Source: Bosea vaviloviae
GTDB taxonomy: Bacteria > Pseudomonadota > Alphaproteobacteria > Rhizobiales > Beijerinckiaceae
Direction of reading: 5' to 3'
NCBI RefSeq assembly: GCF_001741865.1
Contig: NZ_CP017147.1
Location: 3,029,001-3,093,000 of the forward strand
DNA: 64,000 nt
Shown: piece after piece, positions 710 through 46,530 of the stretch
Layout of the letters: the number at the start of each line of letters is the position of its first letter
How positions within the stretch are numbered: position 1 is the stretch's first letter
Position numbers and translations under genes: made by a program
Notes under the pieces: model-generated
What the model saw: the letters and a program-made list of their open reading frames with translations, nothing else
What the model was told of the DNA's origin: nothing
Database searches by the model: none

Positions 710-1609
710 TCAGCTTTCCGGCGGCCGGCGTGCGGCGGCTTCACGCAGGAACGCCACGAGCGCATGCACCGCCGGCGCCGGATGCGGGGTCGGCGTCGTC
801 AGCAGGAAGATGCGGTCGCCGGGGCCGAGCACGTCGTAGTCCGGCAGCAGCCGCAGGAGTTTGCCCTCGGCGATAGGCGCGTCGGCCATATAGTCCGGCA
901 GCAGTCCGATACCGGCTCCGGCCAGCACAGTGTCGCGCATGAACAGGAAATCCTCCGCCTGCAGCCGCGGCTGGACGACGATTGTCTCGACCACGCCGCG
1001 ACGCGAGAGCCGGATGGCATAGTCGCGGCCGGTCGGCGGCGGCGTGACGACCGGCAGGCGCCGCAACATGTCGGGGCCGCCGGTCCCGAATGCGGCCGCG
1101 ATCTCGGGCGCCGCGCATAGGCGCCAGGCGACGCGCCCGAGCTCACGCGCCACCACCGTCTCGGGCGGCTGCGCCAGAACCCGGACGGCGACGTCGATAT
1201 TGTCGGCGACGAGATCGTCGATGCGGTTGCTGAAGGTCACCTTGAGCGTGATCTCAGGCTGTGCCTGCAGGAAGTCGAGCAGCATGGGCGCCAGCGTGAG
1301 CCGCCCGAGCCCGGTCGGCACGCTGACCCTGACATGCCCGCGCGGGCTGTGCCTGTGCCCGGCGATCGCGGCCAGCGCTGCTCCCGCATCCTCGCGCAGG
1401 CGTAGCGCGTGCTCATAGGCGGTCCGGCCGGCATCGGTCAGGTCGACGCGCCGGGTCGTGCGCCGCATCAGCTGCGCGCCGATCTGGCTCTCCAAGGTCT
1501 TCAAGCGCTGGCTGACGCGCGAGCGGGAGAGGCCGAGCCGGCGCGCCGCCTCGCTGAGATTGGGCGTCTCGACGATCTCGGCGAAGAGCAGGAGGAGATT
1601 GAGATCCAT
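710..1609 (-). CDS. LysR family transcriptional regulator
   Basis: A 299-residue LysR-type regulator. The N-terminal winged helix reads MDLNLLLLFAEIVE then LSEAARRLGLSRSRVSQRLK, the usual helix-turn-helix, followed by a type 2 periplasmic-binding-like effector domain. I place the start at the internal ATG at 1609 because LysR proteins normally begin 2-5 residues before this helix; an upstream in-frame extension to 1672 would add 21 atypical residues. It is divergent from an acyl-CoA ligase about 120 bp away, which it probably controls. The gap contains an inverted ATTGTA/TACAAT pair. Effector unknown. Confidence 0.9.
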   Translation of the reverse strand: MDLNLLLLFAEIVETPNLSEAARRLGLSRSRVSQRLKTLESQIGAQLMRRTTRRVDLTDAGRTAYEHALRLREDAGAALAAIAGHRHSPRGHVRVSVPTGLGRLTLAPMLLDFLQAQPEITLKVTFSNRIDDLVADNIDVAVRVLAQPPETVVARELGRVAWRLCAAPEIAAAFGTGGPDMLRRLPVVTPPPTGRDYAIRLSRRGVVETIVVQPRLQAEDFLFMRDTVLAGAGIGLLPDYMADAPIAEGKLLRLLPDYDVLGPGDRIFLLTTPTPHPAPAVHALVAFLREAAARRPPES

Positions 1610-1653
1610 CTGATTGTCGCGAAATCCAGAACAGTCATGTCGACAGGCCGGGG

Positions 1654-1682
1654 ATTGTAGACGTTCAGGCACGGGTTACAAT
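1654..1682. promoter_or_regulatory. Possible LysR operator between the LysR gene and the acyl-CoA ligase gene
   Basis: ATTGTA (1654-1659) and TACAAT (1677-1682) form an inverted pair 17 bp apart in the divergent intergenic region. The position suits a LysR-controlled promoter, but the spacing does not give the classic T-N11-A core, so this is tentative. Confidence 0.3.
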
Positions 1683-1726
1683 TGCCGGCAGAAGGGCGCC
1701 CGAATGCCCCCCGCGAGGAAACATCT

Positions 1727-3208
1727 GTGCCGGCCGAACTGATCTTCGAATCCCGCCGCATTCCAGGCGATGAGCTGGCGGCGCGTGGCGCGCGTCTCGC
1801 CGGCGGTCTGGCGGATCTCGGCCTGCGCGAGGGGGACGTCGTCGCCGTCCTGCTGCGCAACGATCCCGCCTATGCCGACATCATCCAGGCCTGCCGTATC
1901 GGCGGCTTCGTCTATTGCCCGGTCAACTGGCATTTCGCAGCAGCCGAGATCGGCTTCCTGCTGGAGGACAGCGGCGCAAAGGCCCTGATCGGGCACGCCG
2001 ACCTTCTGGCGGCCGCCACTGACGCAATTCCGGTCGGATTGCCCGTGCTGTCGCTCGGCCCGGCCAGTGACTACGAAAGCTGGCTTGCCGCGCAGCCGCC
2101 CTATGCCGGGCCTCTCGTCTCGCCGCGCGGTCACATGGCCTACACCTCCGGCACGACCGGGCGGCCCAAGGGCGTGGTGCGCGATGCGGTGCCGCTGGCC
2201 GAGGTCGCCGCTTACCAGCGCCGCACCATGGCGGTGGTCGAGGCGAGCTTCGGTATCGTGCCCGGCGTGCGGGCCTTGATGCCGGCGCCGCTCTATCACA
2301 GTGCGCCGAGCTTGTTCGCGCAGATGACGCTGCTGGCGGGCGAGCTCTTCGTGCTGATGCCGCGCTTCCGTGAGGAGGAGTTGCTGGCGCTGATCGAGAG
2401 GCATCGGATCGAGACGGTCTATCTCGTGCCGGTGATGTATGTCCGGCTGCTGAAGCTGCCGCTGGAGCTGCGCAGCCGCTACGACCTGTCGAGCCTGCGC
2501 TTCGTCGCCTCGACCGGCGCGCCCTGCGCGCCTGCTTTGAAGCGCGCCATGATCGACTGGCTCGGACCGATCGTGAACGAGACCTATGCCTCGAGCGAGA
2601 CCGGCATGATCACTGCCATAACGGCGCGCGAGGCGCTGGAGCGGCCGGGTAGCAGCGGGCGCCCCTTCGGCGAGGCCAGGATCGCGATCCTCGACGACCA
2701 GGGCGAAGCGCTGCCCGCAGGCGAGATCGGCCTCATCCATGTCCGCCAGCCGGCCTATCCCGACTTCACCTATAAGAACCAGCCGCAGGCACGGGCCAAG
2801 GCCGAACGCGACGGGCTGATCACGCTCGGCGACATGGGTTATCTCGACCGCGACGGCTATCTCTATGTCTGCGACCGGGCCTCCGACATGGTCATTTCCG
2901 GCGGGGTCAACATCTATCCCGCCGAGATCGAGCATGCGCTGGTGCGCTGCGAGGGCGTGCTGGATTGCGCCGTCTTCGGCATTCCCGACGAGGAATATGG
3001 CGAGCAGCTCCTAGCGTTGGTCCAGCCCCAGCCCGGCCACGCACTGGGCCCGGCGGCGCTGGCCGCGGCGCTGCGCGGCGAGATCGCCGGCTACAAGGTG
3101 CCGCGCCGGATCGAGATCGTGTCCGCGCTGCCGCGCGACGACAACGGCAAGATCGCCAAGAAGAAGCTGCGCGAGCCGTATTGGGCTGGAAGTGGCCGGC
3201 GCATCTGA
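1727..3208 (+). CDS. Acyl-CoA synthetase / AMP-dependent ligase
   Basis: A 493-residue member of the ANL superfamily, which activates a carboxylate to an acyl-adenylate and then an acyl-CoA. Visible motifs are the P-loop YTSGTTGRPKG, the adenylate-binding NETYASSETG, the hinge ISGGVNIYPAEIE, and a C-terminal catalytic lysine in DDNGKIAKKKL. I choose the GTG at 1727 because GAGGA lies about 8 bp upstream; the frame remains open to a TTG at 1682 without a comparable ribosome site. The next gene, a Bug-type binding protein, starts 25 bp downstream, suggesting an operon for uptake and CoA activation of one organic acid. The substrate is unknown. Confidence 0.88.
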   Translation: MPAELIFESRRIPGDELAARGARLAGGLADLGLREGDVVAVLLRNDPAYADIIQACRIGGFVYCPVNWHFAAAEIGFLLEDSGAKALIGHADLLAAATDAIPVGLPVLSLGPASDYESWLAAQPPYAGPLVSPRGHMAYTSGTTGRPKGVVRDAVPLAEVAAYQRRTMAVVEASFGIVPGVRALMPAPLYHSAPSLFAQMTLLAGELFVLMPRFREEELLALIERHRIETVYLVPVMYVRLLKLPLELRSRYDLSSLRFVASTGAPCAPALKRAMIDWLGPIVNETYASSETGMITAITAREALERPGSSGRPFGEARIAILDDQGEALPAGEIGLIHVRQPAYPDFTYKNQPQARAKAERDGLITLGDMGYLDRDGYLYVCDRASDMVISGGVNIYPAEIEHALVRCEGVLDCAVFGIPDEEYGEQLLALVQPQPGHALGPAALAAALRGEIAGYKVPRRIEIVSALPRDDNGKIAKKKLREPYWAGSGRRI

Positions 3209-3233
3209 ACGATCGCTGGAAAAGGAGGATGCC

Positions 3234-4214
3234 ATGGGATTGCCTGCCATCGCGCGCCGCACGGTCTGTGCCGGCCTCATCGCGCTCAGTGCGATGCAGG
3301 CGCACGCCGCCGACTATCCGCTACGTCCGATCCGCCTGGTCGTGCCCTATCCGGCCGGCGGCGCCACCGACCAGCTCGCGCGCAGCCTCGCCGAGAGCAT
3401 GGGCCGCGATCTCGGCCAACCCGTCGTGGTCGAGAACAAGCCCGGCGCCAACACCAATCTCGGCGCCGAGGCCGTGGCGCGGGCCGAGCCCGACGGCTAC
3501 ACGCTGCTGATCGGCAGCGGTGCCAATCTCGTGCTCAACCCGCTGCTCTACAAGAAGCTGGGCTTCGACCCCGGCCGCGACCTGCGCCCGCTCGGCCTGC
3601 TCGCCGAGATCCCGCTTGTCGTGGTCACGCATAAATCGGTGCCGGCGACATCGCTGACCGAGCTCGTCGCATATGCCAAGGCCAATCCCGGCAAGCTCAA
3701 CTTCGCCTCCGTCGGCGTCGGCAATCCCCTGCATCTCGCCGCCGAGCGCTTCATGGTGGCGTCGGGCACGCGCATGACCCATGTGCCCTATCGCGGCAGC
3801 GCGCCGGCGCTGCAGGATCTGCTCGGCGGCCAGGTCCAGCTGATGTTCGACACGGCCAGCACGTCGCTGCCGCAGATCCAGGCCGGCGCGCTGAACGGTC
3901 TGGCGGTGGCCGCGACGACGCGGCTCGCGGCGCTGCCCGACATGCCGACCGTGACCGAAGCCGGCTATCCCGGCCAGGAATCGATCGTCTGGTTCGCGCT
4001 CGCCGTGCCGCGCGCGACGCCCGACGCGATCGCGCAGCGACTCCAGCGCAGCCTGACGGGCTTCTATGCCGATGCAACGTTGAAAACGAGCCTGGAAAAG
4101 CAGGGCTGGATGATGCAGCGCGCGATGAGCGCAGCCGAGATCGCCGCTTATCTCGACGCCGACCGCAAGCGCTGGGCCCAGATCATCGCCGACAACAAGA
4201 TCACGCTCGACTGA
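3234..4214 (+). CDS. Bug-family (TctC-like) tripartite tricarboxylate transporter substrate-binding protein
   Basis: A 326-residue periplasmic solute receptor. A signal peptide ending around AMQAHAADYPLRPI leads into the family signature RLVVPYPAGGATDQLAR, then VVENKPGANTNLGAE and the carboxylate-contacting region THVPYRGSAPALQDLLGGQ. The start at 3234 is preceded by AAAGGAGG with 5 bp spacing. It follows the acyl-CoA ligase. Bug proteins are often encoded without their membrane partners; the only TctAB-like pair here lies 16 kb away, so the partner is not established. The ligand is probably an organic or aromatic acid. Confidence 0.9.
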   Translation: MGLPAIARRTVCAGLIALSAMQAHAADYPLRPIRLVVPYPAGGATDQLARSLAESMGRDLGQPVVVENKPGANTNLGAEAVARAEPDGYTLLIGSGANLVLNPLLYKKLGFDPGRDLRPLGLLAEIPLVVVTHKSVPATSLTELVAYAKANPGKLNFASVGVGNPLHLAAERFMVASGTRMTHVPYRGSAPALQDLLGGQVQLMFDTASTSLPQIQAGALNGLAVAATTRLAALPDMPTVTEAGYPGQESIVWFALAVPRATPDAIAQRLQRSLTGFYADATLKTSLEKQGWMMQRAMSAAEIAAYLDADRKRWAQIIADNKITLD

Positions 4215-4252
4215 CGCCGCGTTGGCGGATCGGACGCATGCTTCGCTCCGCC

Positions 4253-4339
4253 CGTCATTGCGAGCGAAGCGAAGCAATCCAGAGGACCGGGCTCCACGTC
4301 CCCATGGATTGCTTCGTCGCTGCGCTCCTCGCAATGACG
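4253..4339. repeat. Palindromic repeat, A element
   Basis: The arms CGTCATTGCGAGCGAAGCGA and its near-complement end at 4339 around a centre of about 30 bp. This is one of six A elements in the window (others near 17174, 19098, 22162, 36789 and 52097), all intergenic. Here it lies between convergent genes next to a terminator. Confidence 0.85.
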
Positions 4340-4341
4340 AT

Positions 4342-4374
4342 CAAGAAAAAGGCCCCGGATCGCTCCGGGGCCTT
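4342..4374 (-). terminator. Intrinsic terminator of the dctQM operon
   Basis: A perfect 10-bp stem, AAGGCCCCGG / CCGGGGCCTT (4349-4374), with a 6-nt loop. On the minus strand it is followed by a TTTTTCTT run. It lies 42 bp past the dctM stop. Confidence 0.8.
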
Positions 4375-4415
4375 CCACGTTTTGAGGGCCGCGCCTTTGT
4401 AAAGCGCTGTTCGCC

Positions 4416-6203
4416 TCAGTTCAGGTTGAGCTTCGGCGGGGCGTTGAGGTCGAGCCCCGGAAGGCCGCCGGAGCCGCCGAGGCCCGGGATCTGGATCGAG
4501 TCGAACTGCTTGTCGATCGACTTCTGGTCGAGCTGCACGGCCGACGCCTTGTAGTGCATCACCATGCTCGGGAAGATCACCACAAGCGCGACCATGATGC
4601 ACTGGATCACCACGAAGGGCACGGCCCCCCAGTAGATCTGCGCGGTGGTGACCGGATCCATCATCTTGGCGGTCACCTTGTCGCGATAGGGGTTCTTCGG
4701 CGCCACCGAGCGCAGGAAGAACAGCGCGAAGCCGAAGGGCGGGTGCATGAACGAGGTCTGCATGTTCACGCCCAGGATGACGCCGAACCAGATCAGGTCG
4801 ATGCCGAGCTTCTCTGCCGCGGGGCCCAGCAGCGGCACCACGATGAAGGCGAGCTCGAAGAAGTCGAGGAAGAAGGCGAGCAGGAACACCATCACGTTGA
4901 CGACGATCAGGAAGCCCGTCGCGCCGCCCGGCAGGCCGACCAGCAGATGCTCGACCCAGACATGGCCGTTGACGCCGTAGAAGGTCAGCGAGAACACGCG
5001 CGCGCCGACCAGGATGAACAGCACGAAGGCCGAGAGCTTGGCGGTCGATTCGGTCGCCTGCTTGAGCAGGTCGAAGGACATGCGCCGCTTGCCATAAGCG
5101 AGCAGGATCGCGCCGGCCGCGCCCATCGCGCCACCTTCGGTCGGGGTCGCGAGGCCGATGAAGATCGTGCCGAGCACCAGGAAGATCAGCGCCAGCGGCG
5201 GCACCATCACGAACACGACCTGTTCGGTCATGCGCGAGAGCAGGCCCAGGCCCAGCCATTTATTGGCGAGCGCGATCACGAAGGACACGCCCACCGCGAT
5301 CGACATGGTCAGCACCACGAAGTCGGCGCCGGCGCCGACAGCGGTGAAGTACTTCATATAGGCGATGGCGATGCCGAAGGAGAGGATCGTCACCACCAGC
5401 AGCGAGCGCCGGCGCGTCTGGCCGTCGGAGTCGCGCAGCGTCTGCGCCTCCGGCGGCAGGCCGGGCGCGCGGTCGGGATAGACGATCGTCACCAGGAAGA
5501 CATAGCCGGCATAGAGCCCGGCGAGCACGAGGCCGGGAATGAAGGCGCCCTCATACATGTCGCCGACCGAGCGGCCGAGCTGGTCGGCGAGCACGATCAG
5601 CACGAGCGAGGGCGGGATGATCTGCGCCAGCGTGCCCGAGGCCGCGATGACGCCCGAGGCGAGGCGACGATCATAGCCGTAGCGCAGCATGATCGGCAGC
5701 GAGATCAGGCCCATCGAGATGACGGAGGCCGCGACCACGCCGGTGGTGGCAGCGAGAAGCGCGCCGACGAAGATGACCGCATAGGCGAGGCCGCCGCGGA
5801 TCGGCCCAAACAATTGGCCGATCGTGTCGAGCAGGTCTTCCGCCATGCCGGAGCGCTCCAGCACCAGCCCCATGAAGGTGAAGAACGGGATCGCCAGCAG
5901 CACGTCGTTGTTCATCGTGCCGTAGATGCGTTCCGGCAGCGCCTGCAGGAAGTTCTCCTGGAACAGCCCGAGCTCGATGCCGACGATGGCGAAGAACAGG
6001 CCATTGGCGGCGAGCGCGAAGGCGACGGGGTAGCCGAGCAGCAGGAACAGCACGAGCGCCGCGAACATCACCGGCGCCATGTTGACGCGCAGGAAGTCGC
6101 CGAAGCCGGCCGCCTGGGCGTCACCGGTATGGAGGCTGAAGAAGGCGGTGACGGTGAGCGCGACCAGAAGGCCGGCGCCGCGCGCGAGGCGGGATGCGGT
6201 CAT
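4416..6203 (-). CDS. TRAP transporter large permease, DctM subunit
   Basis: A 595-residue polytopic inner-membrane protein with more than ten hydrophobic segments. It is the catalytic ion-coupled subunit of a TRAP transporter. Family landmarks include LLLGYPVAFALAANGLFF near the N-terminus, PFFTFMGLVLERSGMAEDL, and the conserved IIPPSLVLIVLADQ. The C-terminal 40 residues are Gly/Pro/Leu-rich and extend beyond the usual DctM end. I use the ATG at 6203; the frame stays open to 6743 only because an 18-bp tandem repeat lies upstream. It follows dctQ by 101 bp. No DctP receptor is encoded nearby, so the ligand is unknown. Confidence 0.9.
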   Translation of the reverse strand: MTASRLARGAGLLVALTVTAFFSLHTGDAQAAGFGDFLRVNMAPVMFAALVLFLLLGYPVAFALAANGLFFAIVGIELGLFQENFLQALPERIYGTMNNDVLLAIPFFTFMGLVLERSGMAEDLLDTIGQLFGPIRGGLAYAVIFVGALLAATTGVVAASVISMGLISLPIMLRYGYDRRLASGVIAASGTLAQIIPPSLVLIVLADQLGRSVGDMYEGAFIPGLVLAGLYAGYVFLVTIVYPDRAPGLPPEAQTLRDSDGQTRRRSLLVVTILSFGIAIAYMKYFTAVGAGADFVVLTMSIAVGVSFVIALANKWLGLGLLSRMTEQVVFVMVPPLALIFLVLGTIFIGLATPTEGGAMGAAGAILLAYGKRRMSFDLLKQATESTAKLSAFVLFILVGARVFSLTFYGVNGHVWVEHLLVGLPGGATGFLIVVNVMVFLLAFFLDFFELAFIVVPLLGPAAEKLGIDLIWFGVILGVNMQTSFMHPPFGFALFFLRSVAPKNPYRDKVTAKMMDPVTTAQIYWGAVPFVVIQCIMVALVVIFPSMVMHYKASAVQLDQKSIDKQFDSIQIPGLGGSGGLPGLDLNAPPKLNLN

Positions 6204-17095: not shown

Positions 17096-17340
17096 GCGCG
17101 GGGAACCCCTCTCCTGTAAGGAGAGGGGCAGGGGTGAGGTGTAGGCCCCCGGACCAGTTGCGTGACACCTTACCGTCATTGCGAGCGCAGCGAAGCAATC
17201 CAGGGGGCGTAGTGCGAACCCTCCTGGATTGCTTCGCTGCGCTCGCAATGACGAGGGAGCGGCGGTCGGACCACGGCCAAAGCGTCCAACGGCCGACCCC
17301 TCACCCTGCCCTCTCCCTACGGGAGAGGGTTCCCCGCGCT
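17096..17340. repeat. B-B' composite palindrome with nested A element
   Basis: The left hairpin (GGGGAACCCCTCTCC..GGAGAGGGG) and right hairpin (CCCTCTCCCTACGGGAGAGGG) are inverted copies ending in the same GCGGGGAACC arm. The inner segment GTGAGGTGTAGGCCCCCGGA matches the composites at 51957 and 57459. A complete A element (17174-17253) sits inside it. The interval between the SDR gene and moaA holds nothing else recognisable. Confidence 0.85.
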
Positions 17341-29680: not shown

Positions 29681-30026
29681 AGCGCGTCATGGTCGGGCTT
29701 GACCCATGGCTGTTCGGTTCGCCGCGAGCGCTCGATCGAAAAGTTCGGTTCATTGCAGGCTTTTCAGCGGGCGGAGACGGGTGGGACAGGCGCGGGGAAC
29801 CCCTCTCCCGGATGGGAGAGGGGCAGGGGTGAGGGTGTGCCCTTTCAGTAGAAGGCGCTGCGGCTCAGCCTCGCCCCAACAATCAGCGGCGGGCCCTCAT
29901 CCCTGCCCTTCTCCCATCCGGGAGAAGGGTTCCCCGCGCCCTTCATCCGGCGCTTCGCTTCATCTCGCCCGCAAGAGGGGAGCCGCGCATGATCCGCTCA
30001 TGGGTCAAGCCTGACCATGACACGCT
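29681..30026. repeat. MITE-like D element (346 bp) containing a B-B' composite
   Basis: Terminal inverted repeats of 27 bp (29681-29707 and 30000-30026) agree at 25 positions; the core is GTCATGGTCGGGCTTGACCC. Inside, from the left: a module TTCGCCGCGAGCGCTCGATC; hairpin B (about 29795-29832); an inner segment with CGCCCCAACAATCAGCGGCG; and the inverted hairpin B' (about 29900-29945). No coding sequence. Partial relatives occur at 33449, 42650, 43257 and 46196. It occupies most of the gap up to the repressor gene. Confidence 0.75.
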
Positions 30027-36788: not shown

Positions 36789-36913
36789 CGTCATTGCGAG
36801 AAGCGAAGCGACGAAGCAATCCAGGAGGACGTAGAGCGCTGCCGTTCCTGGATTGCTTCGCGGAGCCTGTACTCGGGCTTGCCGAAGGCAAGACCCGGGT
36901 GCTCGCAATGACG
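36789..36913. repeat. A element with an inserted hairpin
   Basis: The left arm CGTCATTGCGAGAAGCGAAG and the right end GCTCGCAATGACG belong to an A element. The right arm is interrupted by about 37 bp (36860-36898) that form their own hairpin, ACTCGGGCTTGCC-GAA-GGCAAGACCCGGGT. With this, 36656-36936 holds no gene. Confidence 0.8.
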
Positions 36914-36936
36914 GTTCAGTCAGATTGAAAACCGCT

Positions 36937-42649: not shown

Positions 42650-42893
42650 GTGGCCGAGATGAAGCGAAGTGCCGGATGAAGGGCGCGGGGAACCCTTCTC
42701 CCGTGTGGGAGAAGGGCAGGGATGAGGGCCCGCCGTTGATTATTGAGGCGCAACGGAGCCGCCGCGCCTTCTCCTGAATGGGCACAGCCTCATCCCTGTC
42801 CTTCTCACTGAACTCGGGCTTGCTCGAGTTCAGCACCCAAAGTGTCGAAGTCGGGTGGGCTCGGCTTCGATGAGGGAGACGGGTTTCCCGCGC
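42650..42893. repeat. B-B' composite with inserted double hairpin, left flank of the DUF559 gene
   Basis: Hairpin B (about 42688-42725) has arms CCTTCTCCCGTGTGGGAGAAGG. The inner segment reads GGCCCGCCGTTGATTATTGA. In B' (about 42795-42893) the loop is replaced by a 63-nt unit with two hairpins (42809-42832 and 42845-42870). It ends 26 bp before the DUF559 start and is inverted relative to the composite on the other side of that gene. Confidence 0.75.
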
Positions 42894-42919
42894 CTCTTCG
42901 CCAGTCCATCATCACCGCC

Positions 42920-43255
42920 ATGACGACCGAGCAACGCCGCTTCGCCAGACGCCAGCGGGCGCAGGCAACCGAGCCCGAGGACATCGTTTGGGGCCTGCTG
43001 CGCAACCGGCGTCTCGACGGCCTCAAGTTCCGCCGGCAGGTGCCGCTGCTCGGCTACACCGTCGATTTCCTCGGCGTGGAGCGCAGGTTGATCGTCGAGA
43101 TCGATGGCCGGCAGCATGATTGGGAACGCGACTACGATGTGGCCCGCACGCAGGAGATTGAGCACCACGGCTTCACCCTGCTGCGTTTCAGCAATGCGCA
43201 GGTTCGCGATGAGCGCGACGCAGTTGTGGCAGCGATCCGCAAGGCCTTGGGCTGA
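42920..43255 (+). CDS. DUF559 domain endonuclease-like protein (VSR/PD-(D/E)xK-related)
   Basis: A 111-residue protein. The N-terminus (RQRAQATEPEDIVWGLLRNR) and RRQVPLLGYTVDFLGVERRL lead to IVEIDGRQHDWERDYDVART. VDF and EIDGxxH fit the metal site of DUF559, a family related to very-short-patch-repair nucleases. The C-terminal helix (QVRDERDAVVAAIRKALG) is normal, so it looks complete and intact. It lies between two B-B' composites in opposite orientation, 26 bp after one and about 1 bp before the other. A nuclease role in repair or in moving those repeats is inference. Confidence 0.88.
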   Translation: MTTEQRRFARRQRAQATEPEDIVWGLLRNRRLDGLKFRRQVPLLGYTVDFLGVERRLIVEIDGRQHDWERDYDVARTQEIEHHGFTLLRFSNAQVRDERDAVVAAIRKALG

Positions 43256-43256
43256 C

Positions 43257-43442
43257 CGGGGTCTCCTCCCCGATGAGGGCCCGCGCCCAAACCAAAAAGG
43301 CGCTGCGGCATAGTTGCGCCCCAACAATCAGCGGCACACCCTCACCCCTGCCCCTCTCCCTGAACCCGGGTATACCCGGGTTCAGCACTTGGAGTGTCGA
43401 ACTCGGGTAGACCCGACTTCGATGCGGGAGAGGGGTTCCCCG
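43257..43442. repeat. B-B' composite with inserted double hairpin, right flank of the DUF559 gene
   Basis: Begins right after the DUF559 stop with a shortened B half (GGGGTCTCCTCCCC), then inner sequence CGCCCCAACAATCAGCGGCA, then B' with the loop replaced by hairpins at 43361-43384 and 43397-43422. A D-type module (GCTCGCGGCGAACCGGAC) follows to about 43530. Nothing else was found in 43256-43611. Confidence 0.75.
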
Positions 43443-43611
43443 CGCTTGTCCGATCCGTCCCCGCCCGCTGGAAAGCCCGCGATGAACGGAGCTTTTCGAT
43501 TGGGCGCTCGCGGCGAACCGGACCGCAGTGGGCCGCTTGTCCGGAATGACGCGGTGGTTCCGAGGGTGAACGGCCTGCGCCGGGAGGCGCTGTCTGGAAC
43601 CTCCCGAGCCC

Positions 43612-46195: not shown

Positions 46196-46530
46196 GGGAT
46201 GACGCGCCCTTTTCCCTTCTCCCCTCGCGGGCGAGATGAAGCGAAATCCCGGATGAAGGGCGCGGGGAACCCTTCTCCCGTGTGGGAGAAGGGCAGGGAT
46301 GAGGGCCCGCCGCTGATTGTTGGGACGCAACGGAGCCGCGCAGCCTTCTATTGAAAGGGCACACCCTCACCCCTACCCCTCTCCCATCCGGGAGAGGGGT
46401 TCCCGCGCCTGTCTCATTCGACCTTGCCCACTGGAAAGCCGTCAATGAACAGGACTTTTCGATCGGGTGCTCGCGGCGAACCGGACAGTCGTGGGTCAAG
46501 CCCGACCATGACGCGCGTCGGATTCCAGGG
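46196..46530. repeat. D-type mosaic repeat with a B-B' composite
   Basis: Hairpin B (about 46262-46300), inner GGCCCGCCGCTGATTGTTGG, and inverted B' (about 46365-46412) are followed by a module ending GTGGGTCAAGCCCGACCATG, the D terminal repeat. The left terminal repeat is missing. It fills most of the gap between the two flanking genes; 46046-46195 shows only a short palindrome. Confidence 0.7.

Follow-up and report, generated by a model that had tools for sequence, protein, structure and literature searches.

The window, by which we mean the whole stretch of 64,000 nucleotides analysed here, comes from Bosea vaviloviae (contig NZ_CP017147.1, positions 3,029,001 to 3,093,000) and carries a DUF559 gene on its forward strand (42920..43255). 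The gene opens with an ATG at 42920, its stop codon ends at 43255, and its 111-residue product has a predicted PD-(D/E)XK/Vsr-like fold. An earlier note on this DNA had described an intact DUF559 gene between two palindromic composites, and the match of the protein to Pfam PF04480 (E 1.4e-34) bears out the assignment of the gene. On the left lies an outer half (42683..42728, + strand) with the end GCGCGGGGAA, hairpin arms at 42693-42702 and 42707-42716, and a tail, GGGATGAGGG (42719-42728), that points toward the gene; stem and tail are both of 'A' type. A spacer follows (about 42729..42782, +), and then an inverted half, B' (about 42783..42894, -), whose loop contains a double hairpin (42808..42870, no strand assigned). 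This composite ends near 42894, about 26 bp upstream of the ATG, as the note had it. The second composite, placed about 1 bp after the gene, stood only in part: a segment does start 1 bp past the stop codon, but the stretch directly 3' of it (43256..43284, +) is only a degenerate half, with comparable segments at L001 and L002. Beyond it come the right spacer (about 43285..43338, -), which runs opposite to the left one, and the right outer half (43339..43446, -), with arms at 43351-43360 and 43426-43435, a tail toward the gene and a double hairpin in its loop (43360..43422, no strand assigned). The pair that brackets the gene is hence formed by the outer halves, 42683-42728 and 43339-43446. 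Two further claims were confirmed: the inner segments are oppositely oriented, left and right spacers at this locus (L003) giving an inverted match of 68 points, and the same double hairpin sits in the hairpin loop on both sides. Gene-less composites of the same family lie at 29786..29944 and 46256..46414 (approximate ends, no strand assigned); the one at 46.3 kb is of type A1, and the genomes G001 and G008 hold A2 composites at that site.

Judged by its sequence, the half-element is the intrastrand triplex motif (TM) of Holder et al. (2015; PMC4666352), a hairpin with a mirror tail. The passages of that paper drawn on here describe a G/C-rich motif, which an earlier study that the authors cite had named PIT and which occurs in more than 260 prokaryotic genomes and in 23 copies in E. 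coli MG1655; it is stable as a triplex in vitro, a state not shown in vivo, and in these passages the E. coli copies are said to have no mobility functions nearby. The likeness extends to the pyrimidine-arm hairpin, the short linker, the G-rich mirror tail, the intergenic location in E. coli and the occurrence of some inverted pairs. The difference is that the TM, in those passages, has no known coding partner, whereas here the motif ends a gene-bearing unit and DUF559 is the proposed partner. In E. coli, ycjD (1351407-1351760) is annotated as DUF559, and about 166 bp separate its end from motif no. 9 (1351204-1351239); of the 23 copies in E. coli K-12, this motif is the one beside ycjD. The fabI-sapF interval that holds motif and ycjD is polymorphic, being covered to at least 80% in 3333 of 5426 genomes, and in two strains inspected an efflux operon adjoins fabI instead.

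Stem and tail of the motif vary together. Among 152 distinct A-type halves, the tail base set against the stem pair gives C-G-G in 103, T-A-A in 48 and another combination in one, so that a pyrimidine/purine hairpin with a concordant mirror tail is found in 151 of 152. Of 35 composites, 16 contain both the C-G-G and the T-A-A type, which thus do not merely mark two composite lineages; copying of whole halves could also yield such covariation. Outside the genus, a perfect 8/8 mirror tail accompanies 47% of 1773 hairpins, against 21% after arms were exchanged between elements.

The two-hairpin insert is a feature of its own. Several subtypes carry it inside the loop of their triplex-motif hairpin (the window, L005, L007, L012, L030, L245 and L246); a strict pattern placed 15 of 31 copies in the loop, and most of six inspected failures also look loop-borne. 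The insert looks like a small element in its own right that targets the loop. An Rfam RNA was rejected as the identity of the locus, the only matches being whalefall-1 (43351-43388, -, E 0.011) and mir-337 (E 0.59), both below the gathering score; the whalefall-1 family may resemble the triplex-motif hairpin. Elsewhere in the window there are dispersed palindromes with CGTCATTGCGAG ends (about 36813-36925 and 17150-17240), which appear to resemble CGTC-tagged REPs.

DUF559 is a family of unknown function in Pfam, and the window protein gave only one other Pfam match, sub-threshold, to MTES_1575. All 111 residues fall within the catalytic fold, without an extended DNA-binding region, and the modelled structure supports a nuclease fold like that of Vsr and I-Bth0305I. 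Acidic residues (D49, E60 and D62) are conserved, and the gene is under purifying selection, with a median dN/dS of 0.16 among A1 copies (pairs with dS between 0.05 and 3). The protein is not a Vsr mismatch endonuclease by profile, scoring 15.1 bits against the family cut-off of 97.85 (TIGR00632). A defence gene was rejected in the absence of a PADLOC match, and a RAYT for lack of a HUH/Y1 domain in the Pfam search of the window protein. For a Caulobacter DUF559 protein, the part of the literature drawn on here proposes a role in repair.

The pairing of gene and palindromes was assessed by the best inverted match between 450-base flanks, with displaced windows as controls; the loci compared are not phylogenetically independent. 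In the test of the first 34 Bosea loci, the 99th percentile for 132 displaced windows was 35 and their highest score 66. Five DUF559 genes were found in the 6.7-Mb genome of the window; all five lie among palindromic halves by eye, and four by a score of at least 36. L001 scores 20, one of its sides lying behind an insertion with a transposase-like frame. In L094, a 398-aa frame that we take to be transposase-like (3658-4854) adjoins the DUF559 gene of L001 and lies between it and a further half; the same locus holds a 916-aa frame, glyS-like by reading (763-3513), in which two similar in-frame stretches look like translated palindromic composites. Across the genus, 44 of 61 genomes carry DUF559. 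A score of at least 36 was reached by 24 of the 34 loci first returned (5 from the window's own genome and 29 from others) and by 54 of 70 Bosea loci, these being the ones retrieved of about 78 among the matches listed.

In the wider set, DUF559 is present in 108 of 299 Pseudomonadota genomes. The flanks of 77 of 110 Pseudomonadota loci (30 first returned and 80 hand-picked among the matches listed) match at 36 or more, whereas only 3 of 534 displaced windows do so; at 50 or more the counts are 59 of 110 and 1 of 534. Of the 70 genomes that supplied loci, 55 have a scoring one. A second set, of named loci from several phyla, comprised 80 loci, of which 78 were usable after L375 and L380 were dropped; 40 of the 78 score at least 36, compared with 5 of 435 controls. 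By label, the scoring loci from metagenome-assembled genomes include Planctomycetota (L357), Chloroflexi (L325), Nitrospira and Nitrospiria (L323, L346) and Rokuibacteriota (L369). The association that the earlier note proposed to test is strongly positive in both sets, and chance palindromes are rejected as an explanation, since the displaced windows so rarely match.

In the same flank test, Vsr genes gave 0 of 27 and Y1 transposases 0 of 18, loci at contig ends (3 of 30 Vsr, 12 of 30 Y1_Tnp) being left out; the Y1_Tnp control consists of best-scoring loci, may be mostly of IS200 type and not RAYTs, and hence does not serve as a RAYT positive control. These controls bear on a reading in which triplex motifs are rearrangement hotspots that collect small genes, with DUF559 having no functional link to them. 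That TM loci differ to an unusual degree from one E. coli strain to another (PMC4666352, in the passages drawn on) speaks for such hitch-hiking; we nevertheless regard it as very improbable, since neither displaced windows nor Vsr and Y1_Tnp genes show the paired match and the halves match locus by locus.

A hairpin with a pyrimidine 5' arm was found on both sides at 71 of 110 loci and on one side at 34 more (a set that includes the misplaced L135), while a hairpin of the reverse composition occurred on both sides at none of the 110. On the other hand, 33 of 110 Pseudomonadota and 38 of 78 named loci have no paired match, which counts against reading gene and halves as one element; among unpaired loci, a C-arm hairpin is present on at least one side in 33 of 34 (counting one misplaced locus) and 32 of 38. 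The inverted match exceeds the direct one at only 52 of 76 scored loci (L135 included), because hairpins match themselves either way. By pattern, the tails at 76 loci point toward the gene on both sides in 43, away in 4, allow both readings in 5 and neither in 24.

The halves belong to their gene. In genomes with several scoring DUF559 loci, a left half resembles the right half of its own locus more closely than that of any other such locus in 35 of 36 cases, a pattern not expected of a general genomic repeat. Protein and palindrome distances correlate weakly overall (Mantel r 0.14, with 5 of 2000 permutations as high, in a set that includes the misplaced L135), and for same-genome pairs the correlation is not significant (n 31, p 0.14). 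Among the loci read by eye (the flanks of about L081-L112 left out), each DUF559 class has its own palindrome; L005, for instance, is of a different subfamily and has a different palindrome on both sides. Flank similarity in Bosea gives a single group for class B and another for class C, with 14 loci in each, and about ten groups for class A, and the window's genome has three A1 copies. Class B (L005, L108, L114, L115, L118-L122, L125, L126, L128, L130 and L131) occupies one flank group, between murC and murB by reading, and its frame extends into the palindrome with its final residues. In L066 (G011 contig 1, 816299-817908), alternating A2 motifs form a BIME-like tandem array around the gene. 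In L067 and L132, the end of the upstream gene (WEVKR) recurs almost unchanged at the end of the DUF559 frame, so that a direct duplication encloses the insert; the upstream gene is presumably cysS-like.

The spread of class A over about ten flank groups, and of A1 to three copies in one genome, is also relevant to the possibility that DUF559 is a domesticated structure nuclease, cutting replication-blocking triplexes or cruciforms (or mismatches) for the cell, with the motifs as operators, terminators or debris. We consider this improbable, given such multiplication and ends that match gene by gene.

Copies at different sites behave as units. Class A copies that belong to different flank groups resemble one another throughout the gene and the halves on either side: L004, whose outer palindrome ends lie at -146 and +174, shares -145 to +178 with L077, -121 to +179 with L109 and -144 to +167 with L066. 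L001 and L002, whose left halves both begin at -103, are alike from -102 up to the break in L001 at +56. The remaining compared pairs share more (syntenic copies or repeat arrays) or less (diverged copies). As far as these alignments go, Bosea copies at different sites have in common approximately the stretch bounded by the two outer palindrome ends, and terminal inverted repeats surround a discrete unit, as in insertion sequences and MITEs. Relatives without the gene at the window's site have either no element or another composite there: G034, G027 and G048 show a plain gap of 119-120 bp, and G008 a gene-less composite of another subtype. G032 has the gene and further composites. No target-site duplication or excision was seen at the sites compared, among which no clean young insertion was found, and at 36.76 kb the break falls at another repeat family.

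Gene-less composites are dispersed in the genome, and motif copies outnumber genes (40 of 163 and 40 of 124 candidates were scored). Exact A2 hairpins have a median of 22.5 per genome in 14 Bosea genomes that carry the A2 type, compared with 2 in the other 47 (p 1.3e-6), and A1 hairpins show a weaker trend (median 2.5 in 12 A1 carriers, 1 in 49; p 0.006). Among 299 genomes, at least three CCTCTCCC hairpins were present in 55 of 80 with strong DUF559, 3 of 28 with weak DUF559 and 11 of 191 without it, GC content and genome size being uncontrolled. The expectation that genomes lacking the gene would also lack the palindromes held as a tendency but not strictly: 17 Bosea genomes without DUF559 still have 0-28 exact A2 hairpins, with a median of only 2, and 0-12 A1 hairpins. 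Such copies are expected of relics, yet they count against strict dependence.

An excess of motifs over genes would also suit homing, in which DUF559 is a free-standing endonuclease that cuts composites and is copied in by break repair, the composites spreading by other means. Among enzymes of known function, the homing endonuclease I-Bth0305I is indeed the nearest by fold, and L086 looks like a natural chimera exchanged inside the gene, its N-terminal half and 5' palindrome being A1 and its C-terminal half and 3' palindrome A2. In the sources drawn on in part, however, I-Bth0305I is a Vsr-like EDxHD enzyme with long DNA-binding regions, filed as a mobile intron protein. DUF559 shares the Vsr-like catalytic fold but is a bare catalytic domain with palindromic ends of its own; its 111 residues include no long DNA-binding extension, every gene has its own matching ends, and three relatives have no element at all at the window's site. 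Homing thus seems unlikely to us.

The earlier note had likened the layout to REP elements and their RAYT transposases, with a Vsr-related nuclease in their place, and the flank association and the modelled Vsr-like fold agree with this. As in REP/BIME/REPIN systems with RAYTs (REPtrons, TIRtrons), a small gene lies between matching palindromes specific to it, and these also occur as dispersed, intergenic, gene-less inverted doublets. RAYTs belong to the HUH (Y1) enzymes, and their repeats are GTAG-tagged REPs or unrelated TIRs (PMC3733652 and PMC8266576, in the passages drawn on), whereas the gene studied here encodes a PD-(D/E)XK-type nuclease and the tail is GTGAGGG-like; no GTAG tag was found next to the stem by reading, the tail being GGGATGAGGG or GGGGTGAGGG. 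Vsr genes, in turn, lack the flanking palindrome pairs. For these comparisons, passages were also drawn from PMC3943268, PMC3116915 and PMC12907096. Within the open-licence literature, preprints excluded, we found no paper that joins DUF559 to palindromes.

Altogether, we consider it probable that the DUF559 gene and its two inverted halves form one element, which the nuclease processes and spreads, and that the gene-less composites of half, spacer and inverted half are its non-autonomous derivatives. This reading rests on the pairing, the locus-specific matching of halves, the stem-tail covariation, the copies alike roughly from end to end, the empty sites, the conserved acidic residues and the purifying selection. 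Against it stand the loci that have no paired match, the many loci at which the direct match equals or beats the inverted one, the elements kept in genomes without DUF559, the lack of any target-site duplication or excision at the sites compared, the weak correlation of proteins and palindromes, the uncontrolled GC content and genome size in the genome-level test, and the repair role proposed for the Caulobacter protein. Each half would be an intrastrand triplex motif, a pyrimidine-arm hairpin whose G-rich tail mirrors the purine arm, folded as a single strand or extruded during replication or repair. DUF559, as a single-domain nuclease resembling Vsr and homing endonucleases, would recognise its own subtype of folded half and cut at or beside it, and the stretch between the two inverted halves might then be copied or moved to another intergenic site. 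Binding and cutting of the motif, with cutting as the driver of spread, are what we infer from these features. By analogy, the best-supported account would follow the one proposed for RAYT and REP, but with an unrelated enzyme: a nuclease and the structured ends that it recognises would spread jointly, and gene-less derivatives with them. More tentatively, and with some doubt on our part, DUF559 could be the only enzyme of a so far unrecognised class of mobile elements with DNA-triplex hairpin ends. With its Vsr fold, the nuclease would read a three-stranded structure and scatter its own gene, along with many gene-less motifs, over several bacterial phyla, the triplex motifs of E. coli included.

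The pairing described here gives DUF559 a candidate substrate, and it offers a candidate origin for triplex motifs, which are reported from more than 260 prokaryotic genomes (PMC4666352, in the passages drawn on) and have no known origin. The base triads appear to be kept by selection, and both parts, the DUF559 gene and the triplex motifs, are present in E. coli K-12. The finding also suggests where the partners of transposase-less repeats might be sought, such as those of CGTC REPs, which the passages drawn from PMC3733652 describe as repeats without a dedicated transposase. In this sense, DUF559 could supply the machinery, missing so far, for spreading or processing triplex-motif repeats.
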